IMG/VR virus record: IMGVR_UViG_3300017757_000088
Location: 1 to 29,434 of that record
Length of the DNA: 29,434 nt
DNA from: a virus
Direction: 5' to 3' (one strand)
The notes beneath the pieces are model-generated. The model had not been told where the DNA came from, ran no database searches, and saw only the letters and a program-made list of their open reading frames with translations. Position numbers and translations under genes: made by a program. Of the stretch, positions 26,350-27,778 are shown piece by piece (positions within the stretch are counted from its first letter, which is position 1; every line of letters starts with the position of its first letter).

Positions 26350-26370
26350 ATACAGGCAGGTTTTAACTAC
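26350..26370. repeat. Inverted repeat, left copy, at the end of hsp20
   Basis: This 21-base copy (core ATACAGGCAGGTT followed by AACTAC after two extra T bases) overlaps the hsp20 stop codon. Its reverse complement stands at 26856-26874, so the pair brackets hsp20. The coding-strand copy is followed by a short T-run. Confidence 0.6.
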
Positions 26371-26804
26371 TTAATTATAACCGTTTTTGGTTTCGATTCC
26401 TCGGATAGAGAAATTCGAATGTTTAATAACCCATTTTCCATATTAGCTTTAATACTGTTAAGGTCGTATTTAGCGCTAATTTTCCATCCTAAATTAAAGC
26501 TTTTTCTTGTTATGCCTCTATGCATAAAATCTGGTGCTTCTGTTTCAGATGGATTGCTCTCGATATTAGGTTTGTTATAAGCAACCTTTAAAGTATTGCC
26601 TTCTGTTGTAATATCGATATCACCTTTCTTTAAACCAACACATGCTATATCAAAGCATAAATCTGAATCTTGTGTATATACATCTACCGGGTAATTTGGT
26701 TTCTGCTCTACATAAGATTGAAACATTGAATTGTTGTCAAAAAAATTTCTAAATAATAAATCCGTTGGAAAAAACGAATGTTCGTGTAATTGTATTCCTG
26801 TCAT
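26367..26804 (-). CDS. Hsp20-type small heat-shock chaperone
   Basis: 145 residues, ATG at 26804 after AAGGAGATTTATT, a strong ribosome site. The alpha-crystallin domain spans ~38-133: YPVDVYTQDSDLCFDIACVG (38-57), the GLKKGDIDITTEGNTLKVAY strands, a RGITRKSFNLGWKI segment (96-109), and the hallmark ENGLLNIRISL (123-133). A C-terminal TVIIK tail may serve as the dimer-exchange motif. Such proteins hold unfolding proteins in solution. Hsp20 genes are common in marine T4-like phages, where they may support capsid or tail assembly. The gene is bracketed by inverted repeats. Confidence 0.92.
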   Translation of the reverse strand: MTGIQLHEHSFFPTDLLFRNFFDNNSMFQSYVEQKPNYPVDVYTQDSDLCFDIACVGLKKGDIDITTEGNTLKVAYNKPNIESNPSETEAPDFMHRGITRKSFNLGWKISAKYDLNSIKANMENGLLNIRISLSEESKPKTVIIK

Positions 26805-26855: not shown

Positions 26856-26874
26856 GTAGTTAACCTGCCTGTAT
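26856..26874. repeat. Inverted repeat, right copy, upstream of hsp20
   Basis: These 19 bases (GTAGTTAACCTGCCTGTAT) are the reverse complement of 26350-26370, apart from a two-base deletion. The copy begins at the stop of the 210-residue gene and lies about 50 bases before the hsp20 start. Transcribed together, the two copies could pair around the whole hsp20 message. Confidence 0.6.
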
Positions 26875-27506
26875 TAAATACTATTTTGTTTTCCCATATT
26901 AAATATGTAGCTATGTATTGTAATGTTACCGTGCTTTTTAATCCTATGTTCACATTCACAATTATTATTTGCTAACATTCTTTCTTTAAATTTTGTAAGT
27001 TCTGATAAATTAGATGAACTGATTGCTATATATCCATCTAATATCTCAACTTTAGTTTTCTTACTAGTATAAACAAAACTCGAATGTAATGGCTTTCCTG
27101 ATAATGCTCTATTTGCATAATAATCTAACATCTCATCTGATAATGTTGATATCCAGTTATAAAACGATTCAGATGTTTTATATAAGCTCTTATCATGTGT
27201 ATGTAAAATATCCCACAATCTTTCCTCATCTCTATGTGTATATTGTGTGAAGTATTTTTCGAACTCACTTACTTCATCTGTTGTTAATGATTTTATATAA
27301 TCCATTAATGATTTTGATTTGTTTACTGTCTTACTCTCTCGTTGATGTACTATTGCTCTTATCTGATCAAATAATGTACTTTGATTACGAGCTGGTAATC
27401 CGCTACGTAAAGTATCAACCTCATCTTGTGTATACGAGAATAAGCTATCCTTCAATTTATCACTGAATAAATCACTTGGTGCTAATCCTGTATCTCTCAA
27501 TTTCAT
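26874..27506 (-). CDS. Unknown 210-residue protein downstream of tmRNA
   Basis: ATG at 27506 is chosen because GAGG lies six bases before it. A GTG four codons upstream is possible but lacks a better ribosome site. No family is recognised. The sequence is helical and polar, with a Ser/Leu/Thr-rich N-terminus (GLAPSDLFSDKLKDSLFSY), a central helical section (SLMDYIKSLTTDEVSEFEKY) and a C-terminal portion with strands (KVEILDGYIAISSSN), Cys-Glu-Cys (CEC) and HRIKKHGNITIHSY. Repeated phrases around 'D-E-V/M' and 'S-L/F-x-x-W' might reflect internal duplication, though I cannot establish it. It directly follows the tmRNA and may share its transcript. Confidence 0.6.
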   Translation of the reverse strand: MKLRDTGLAPSDLFSDKLKDSLFSYTQDEVDTLRSGLPARNQSTLFDQIRAIVHQRESKTVNKSKSLMDYIKSLTTDEVSEFEKYFTQYTHRDEERLWDILHTHDKSLYKTSESFYNWISTLSDEMLDYYANRALSGKPLHSSFVYTSKKTKVEILDGYIAISSSNLSELTKFKERMLANNNCECEHRIKKHGNITIHSYIFNMGKQNSI

Positions 27507-27534
27507 ATTATACCTCACGTTATTTTTTAACCTC

Positions 27535-27757
27535 AGATCCTCCGGGATTTTGACGACATGATCCCTGTTTGTCGTTTGGTATGGGTGCCTATCTAGGCAG
27601 CCATCGCCATTTCAACTTGTTCGCCAGTTAATTGCGGTTTGACCTTCCTTATACCCTTACTACCTGTCAACGCCATTCACCCCCATATTATAAGTTGTCA
27701 CTTGGTGGAGATGCCGGGAATCGAACCCGGGTCCAGATTAGCAGCTAATATAAGTAC
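27535..27757 (-). ncRNA. ssrA: Circularly permuted (two-piece) tmRNA
   Basis: In transcription order, the acceptor piece comes first: a T-arm (CCGGGTTCGATTCCCGG, ~27731-27715), then CATCTCC and ACCA ending at 27703. After an 18-base spacer, the coding piece starts GGGGGTG (27684-27678). GGGGGTG pairs with CATCTCC over seven positions (two G-U), forming the tRNA-like acceptor stem. GAATGGCGTTGACAGG follows, matching the conserved tmRNA D-region. A GTATAAG/CTTATAT match can form helix P2 between the pieces. The tag frame starts at GGC 27625 after TAACT and encodes GEQVEMAMAA then TAG (27595-27593), its stop in the loop of a TGCC/GGCA hairpin. An H-type pseudoknot follows: ACGACA/TGTCGT (27575-27570 with 27558-27553) and GGGAT/ATCCC (27565-27561 with 27548-27544). 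Outer ends are approximate. Confidence 0.92.
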
Positions 27758-27763
27758 TAGCGG

Positions 27764-27778
27764 TCATATATAAATATC
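27764..27778 (-). promoter_or_regulatory. Candidate promoter of the tmRNA
   Basis: The coding strand reads GATATTTATATATGA, identical over 15 bases to the box at 2642-2656. It overlaps the stop codon of the 142-residue gene and ends about seven bases before the likely start of the tmRNA acceptor piece. That is the distance expected between a -10 box and a transcription start. It suggests the tmRNA is made at the same time as late structural genes. Confidence 0.5.

Follow-up and report, generated by a model that had tools for sequence, protein, structure and literature searches.

A circularly permuted tmRNA gene, likely of Bacteroidota-like type, in a clade of marine T4-like phages

The window, that is the whole stretch of 29,434 nucleotides analysed here, carries a circularly permuted tmRNA gene on its minus strand (27766-27544, taking the paired extent from the P2 3' strand to the end of the pseudoknot). 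The explanation that we favour, and hold to be probable, is that it is a genuine two-piece tmRNA gene belonging to a clade of marine T4-like phages, derived from a Bacteroidota one-piece tmRNA that was permuted in the phage lineage, and working via host enzymes. Permutation of the tmRNA gene is known from three bacterial lineages and from mitochondria. Two-piece tmRNAs of phages have also been published, as in a survey from 2022 where they made up 53 of 133 unique phage tmRNA structures, mostly marine and 50 of them aquatic (PMC9004378); a permuted tmRNA in a phage is thus not new, and the surprise expressed at it in the first-pass annotation finds no support. The permuted form has been described in three main bacterial clades (PMC11915505), and a literature search for permuted tmRNA and Bacteroidota returned no report of a Bacteroidota-like type, while the supplementary tables of PMC11915505 may already list permuted entries from phages or Bacteroidota. 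It is this Bacteroidota-like type of permuted phage tmRNA that looks new.

Layout and covariation of the permuted gene

The only RNA gene that ARAGORN called in the window lies on the minus strand; it was classed as a permuted tmRNA (tmRNA*), and its tag was read as GEQVEMAMAA. The Rfam model tmRNA_permuted (RF04321) matched at 67.4 bits (E 3.7e-11; cut-off 47 bits) over 27755-27593, covering the full model (1-213). Read along the minus strand, the P2 3' strand, T arm, acceptor 3' strand and A-CCA are followed by an 18-base spacer and GGGGGUG, and then by the D-region, P2 5' strand, resume site, tag, hairpin and pseudoknot. The sequence and structural features that define membership of RF04321 were found: the T arm and acceptor 3' end are encoded upstream of the acceptor 5' end, a 7-bp acceptor stem with G3-U70 joins both parts together with P2, and the tag frame has a resume codon and ends in a stop. 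The swapped halves and 18-base spacer of the first-pass annotation are thereby confirmed (ARAGORN, RF04321, covariation), as are its 7-bp acceptor stem, P2 helix and H-type pseudoknot, all of which covary in 58 relatives, and the ends that it named (27703 and 27684) coincide in the sequence with CCA and G1. It had given the extent as 27535-27757 with no strand; the gene stands, on the minus strand, but its start does not, as the pairing extends as far as about 27766. The parts are the following:

27544..27766, minus strand: permuted tmRNA gene, paired extent (ARAGORN, RF04321, covariation)
27703..27766, minus strand: tRNA-like 3' piece (acceptor piece) with P2 3' strand, T arm, acceptor 3' strand and A-CCA
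27762..27766, minus strand: P2 outer helix, 3' strand UGACC; partner GGUCA at 27644-27640 (two-sided changes at 4 of 5 pairs, 96.9% paired)
27748..27754, minus strand: P2 middle helix, 3' strand CUUAUAU; partner GUAUAAG at 27654-27648 (two-sided changes at 5 of 7 pairs, 99.3% paired)
27736..27741, minus strand: P2 inner helix, 3' strand; partner AGGUAG near 27665-27660 (interrupted in the window copy)
27714..27730, minus strand: T arm CCGGG-UUCGAUU-CCCGG (100% paired, two covarying pairs)
27707..27713, minus strand: acceptor stem 3' strand CAUCUCC, pairing across the permutation with 27684-27678; invariant G3-U70
27703..27706, minus strand: discriminator A and encoded CCA (sequence)
27685..27702, minus strand: intervening segment of 18 bases, presumably removed on processing
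27678..27684, minus strand: acceptor stem 5' strand GGGGGUG; predicted mature 5' end of the coding piece (RNase P site)
27665..27677, minus strand: D-loop-like AAUGGCGUUGACA, with the Bacteroidota-type U before GAC
27593..27625, minus strand: tag reading frame GGC..UAG, GEQVEMAMAA* (ARAGORN; codon counts in 64 sequences)
27584..27602, minus strand: hairpin across the tag end and stop codon (100% paired, compensatory C-G/U-A/G-C)
27544..27575, minus strand: H-type pseudoknot, S1 27575-27571/27557-27553 and S2 27565-27561/27548-27544

The structure was assessed in an alignment of 58 distinct relatives from viral contigs, gathered by a tag scan and by a scan with a phage neighbour gene; ARAGORN called the gathered relatives permuted, with tags G[EATK]QVE[MLY]AMAA. 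Over 39 pairs 97.6% of the cells are paired, and 20 pairs show two-sided changes, which number 255 as against 72 in shuffles. The covariation score is 0.366, compared with 0.177 +/- 0.006 in shuffles (0 of 500 reach it) and at most 0.095 with partners slid; sliding by one base makes the pairing between the two halves collapse, and much of the signal comes from the helices that link these swapped halves. All 7 pairs of the acceptor stem are kept in 100% of the 58 sequences, with the third pair covarying (CG/UA/GC) and G3-U70 kept in 58/58. The outer P2 pair varies as C-G/U-A/A-U, and the inner P2 helix occurs in 29 distinct strand combinations that remain complementary, with a mean longest helix of 5.45 bp versus 3.67 +/- 0.18 bp for shuffled partners. 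In the pseudoknot, S1 is 98.6% paired across the 58 sequences and S2 has two-sided changes at all five pairs. The frame of tag and stop is intact in all counted sequences and the resume context is kept; Ala codons and stops change synonymously, and the wobble positions of the tag codons CAA GUU GAA are invariant in 64 sequences, a hint of constraint at the RNA level. Folding of the single window copy is unremarkable and uninformative (z -1.12), and the case for the structure therefore rests on covariation, not on single-sequence folding. The folding result would suit a chance resemblance or a plain tRNA fragment, a reading that is already refuted by covariation far above the shuffled and slid controls, as well as opposed by the Rfam E value, and to which we give practically no weight.

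Outside the paired core the family varies more. Many relatives have ACUA or ACAA in place of the encoded A-CCA, and the intervening segment differs in both length and sequence; in two members (L206 and L222) a nearly identical long structured spacer (cggactatattcatttagatataatatggtcc...) lies between the halves. The mature 5' end of the acceptor piece is provisionally placed at 27766, from the covarying pair there. A candidate hairpin at 27629-27608 (AACU-GGCGAACA-AGUU) would hold the resume codon inside its loop. Immediately upstream of P2 lies TATTTAT (27776-27769), kept in 60/66 family members, whose opposite strand reads as a T4-type late promoter, TATAAATA; the motif may serve in processing or as a promoter. 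A scan for promoters and terminators near the tmRNA gene gave no signal above chance. In three distinct family members the pseudoknot is directly followed by an intrinsic terminator, suggesting where the transcript has its 3' end.

Type of the tmRNA and the permuted form elsewhere

As for the models that the first-pass annotation had proposed as a check, ARAGORN and the general permuted model recognise the gene, whereas alpha_tmRNA (RF01849), beta_tmRNA (RF01850) and cyano_tmRNA (RF01851) all remain below their gathering score for it. The gene resembles the RF04321 family in the order of the halves, the tRNA-like domain and P2, and reaches 67 bits on that general model; the best of the three subtypes, beta_tmRNA, gives 47 bits against a cut-off of 84 (E 1.9e-13 in a small search). 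Most of the other permuted phage tmRNAs that were scored exceed the threshold of alpha_tmRNA or beta_tmRNA. A marine tmRNA family of considerable size escapes all three subtype models.

In the window copy the D-loop GUUGAC, the resume site AACUGGCGAA and the Gly-Glu tag, a small set of characters, are of the Bacteroidota tmRNA type. The U before GAC in the D-loop occurs in 62/66 family members and in 89/105 tmRNAs of a genome set with Gly-Glu tags (nearly all Bacteroidota), as opposed to 2/31 other permuted phage tmRNAs. The resume context AACUGGC and the Gly-Glu start of the tag match one-piece tmRNAs of Bacteroidota, as does its AMAA end, so that the earlier description of the tag as Bacteroidetes-like holds. 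Log-odds scoring favours the Bacteroidota type for 41/44 resume sites and 33/44 D-loops, while the T arm is neutral and does not separate Bacteroidota from alpha or beta types. Gly-Glu tags are also found outside Bacteroidota, for example in Chloroflexota and Zixibacteria, and some standard tmRNAs of Chloroflexota combine AACUGGC with Gly-Glu tags, without the D-loop character. With the one-piece tmRNAs of Bacteroidota (tags such as GEDSYAMAA) the phage gene shares UUUGACA, AACUGGCGAA, the Gly-Glu start and the AMAA end, but the former have the standard order and about 360-400 nt, whereas the phage gene is permuted and has about 220 nt. In common with the two-piece tmRNAs of marine phages (Melnitz, Pelagibacter phage Mosig and others), it is a permuted ssrA of T4-like marine myophages with a short spacer and a 5' half that holds tag and pseudoknot; those were, however, reported as alphaproteobacterial, gammaproteobacterial or cyanobacterial types (PMC9004378), whereas the window gene has a D-loop, resume site and tag of Bacteroidota type. 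On these few sequence characters, the gene is likely a two-piece tmRNA of Bacteroidota-like type, permuted apart from the alpha, beta and cyano lineages.

The permuted form was also sought in Bacteroidota chromosomes, using two overlapping sets, 395 genomes from the phylum and 396 from a single order (about 790 genome searches, a fraction of the phylum). Only one genome, G243 (L357 / L394), had a permuted match above cut-off. Phage-type genes for a primase, a helicase, a DNA polymerase and an annealing protein are found near its permuted tmRNA, whose tag is GKVIQMNNAPVRLAA; the same genome also carries a standard tmRNA (160 bits), and the tag type of the permuted gene recurs in viral contigs. 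A search of isolate phages by DNA yielded T-arm matches only, and these led to permuted tmRNAs in Chryseobacterium phage MA9V-3 and in the crAss-like phages cr50_1 and cr10_1; Cellulophaga phage Calle was rejected as a further case, its tmRNA being of standard form. The single hit in a phage region and the occurrences in phages argue that, within this sample, the permuted form is phage-carried. The first-pass annotation had left it between a host lineage with permuted tmRNA and a phage that acquired or invented the permutation; the phage-borne form is favoured, since the sole Bacteroidota hit is in a phage region and the host copy is standard. The genes of MA9V-3, cr50_1, cr10_1 and the prophage-like copy in G243 are, like the window gene, permuted, with tags starting in Gly; they lie in phages of Bacteroidota, as the window phage may be, but have longer or different tags, longer spacers and belong to other phage groups.

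Taken together, these genes probably form a fourth, phage-borne group of permuted tmRNAs that arose in phages of Bacteroidota and uses host SmpB. We lean slightly towards a fourth independent permutation that is confined to such phages (T4-like, crAss-like, Chryseobacterium, prophage), with the hosts keeping the one-piece form. If so, two tmRNAs with different tags would coexist in infected cells, the one-piece form of the host and the two-piece form of the phage.

Several further observations concern these other groups. The long spacers in cr50_1 and cr10_1 (L390, L391) hold a stretch like a tRNA T arm, and RAGATH-22 and RAGATH-9 RNAs lie 0.5-1.2 kb upstream of the permuted tmRNA. Sister permuted tmRNAs (L408, L409, L413, L437; L410, L416, L421, L431) have tags of 36-37 aa, e.g. 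GKQVNTTIASIFASLSAIRSLSQETIVAKEQVFAMAA, far above the usual 10 aa and mostly mis-predicted by ARAGORN. Constraint at the protein level on the 37-aa tags was unsupported, as non-synonymous changes exceed synonymous ones.

Host and proposed working

The evidence on the host is divided. A Bacteroidota host is suggested by a Flavobacterium phage among the closest relatives and by the tmRNA characters (D-loop, resume site, tag). In the same direction points an exported outer membrane protein (OMP) of the phage, with Gln as the first residue past its signal peptide in 25 relatives; Bacteroidota habitually have Gln at this position. Homologues of the OMP were found in 54/296 genomes of one Flavobacteriales-type order. 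On the other side, Shine-Dalgarno-like GGAG/GAGG precedes 14/28 window genes (background 6%); Flavobacterium phage immuto has it at 1/34, and Bacteroidota loci stay at the background level. This contrast argues against an ordinary Bacteroidota as host. A 5.6-kb phage-like contig (G476) was too weak as a host link, sharing just the OMP and a weak second match. Chloroflexota were rejected as hosts with a permuted gene: 251 genomes contained no permuted tmRNA, and the sole hit above cut-off is a standard gene according to ARAGORN.

In the established two-piece mechanism a single precursor is cut by tRNA-processing enzymes and the pieces are held together by base pairs (PMC9004378, PMC11915505), and every feature of the window gene appears to fit it. 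One precursor would be transcribed, the tRNA-like 3' part first, and the acceptor stem would close round the 18-base spacer. Host tRNA-processing enzymes would then excise the spacer, with RNase P cutting at 27684/27685, 3' nucleases trimming and CCA being added, and two RNAs would remain, joined by acceptor stem and P2. Charging by host AlaRS via G3-U70 would follow. SmpB is encoded in none of 14 phage records examined, so that host SmpB must serve, bringing the tmRNA to stalled ribosomes, which would be released upon addition of GEQVEMAMAA. By descent, a Bacteroidota one-piece tmRNA would have undergone permutation within a phage lineage, in an event distinct from those behind the alpha, beta and cyano forms. 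The phage may benefit by keeping ribosomes running once host DNA is destroyed, or by replacing the host tmRNA or competing with it.

The same working would hold if the gene were an alpha- or beta-type permuted tmRNA taken from a proteobacterium or its phage, with tag, resume site and D-loop drifted to a Bacteroidota-like state. Such permuted types are common in marine phages (PMC9004378), the beta_tmRNA score has a low E value, and the use of Shine-Dalgarno sites is like that of phages with alpha- or beta-type tmRNA. We nevertheless consider this capture unlikely, given that the gene falls under each old subtype cut-off, that the D-loop U, AACUGGC and Gly-Glu tag match Bacteroidota one-piece tmRNAs instead, and that the same characters occur in phages tied more firmly to Bacteroidota. 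The Shine-Dalgarno sites, which speak against ordinary Bacteroidota, and the Gly-Glu tags of other phyla would also agree with an unsampled marine host that has both, carries a permuted tmRNA on its chromosome and passed a copy to the phage. The 251 Chloroflexota genomes offer no such case, however, and the Bacteroidota-like permuted family is abundant in viral contigs, which makes a chromosomal source improbable.

A decayed or decoy tmRNA, binding SmpB or ribosomes without tagging in the manner of the tRNA-like-only tmRNA reported for phage DS6A, would account for the encoded CCA missing in many relatives, and a phage RNA that inhibits tmRNA is known (PMC11915505; PMC4131195). Against the intact tag frame and stop, the kept resume context and the invariant G3-U70, it seems very improbable. 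Should the favoured reading of a phage-confined Bacteroidota-like type be true, it would show that rearranged essential RNAs can arise or be maintained in phages, and would offer a natural system where the tmRNAs of host and phage, unlike in architecture and tag, compete for one SmpB.

Phage setting of the gene

The 29-kb virus record encodes an SbcCD-like nuclease, a primase and T4-type baseplate wedge proteins, the last bearing out the earlier assignment to a T4-like phage. By wedge protein, the closest named phages are Microcystis phage Mel-JY01, Flavobacterium phage immuto and the huge phage LR756508; neither of the former two yields a tmRNA above threshold, and LR756508 carries one of standard form. 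This standard tmRNA (L150, LR756508.1 92434-92880) lies about 12 kb from the homologous baseplate gene and has an apparent very long tag, for which the ARAGORN call is probably wrong.

In near relatives of the window phage the same two phage genes flank the tmRNA, while in others (e.g. L076, L080, L089) these genes adjoin and the tmRNA is absent, indicating that it is gained or lost as a clean unit. A pattern scan of viral contigs gave no relatives of the adjacent gene (26874-27518) but did so for the HD-hydrolase gene, and the tmRNA is present at 27/80 loci with the latter. A gene for an Hsp20 small heat shock protein (26367-26804 in the window) adjoins the tmRNA in this clade.
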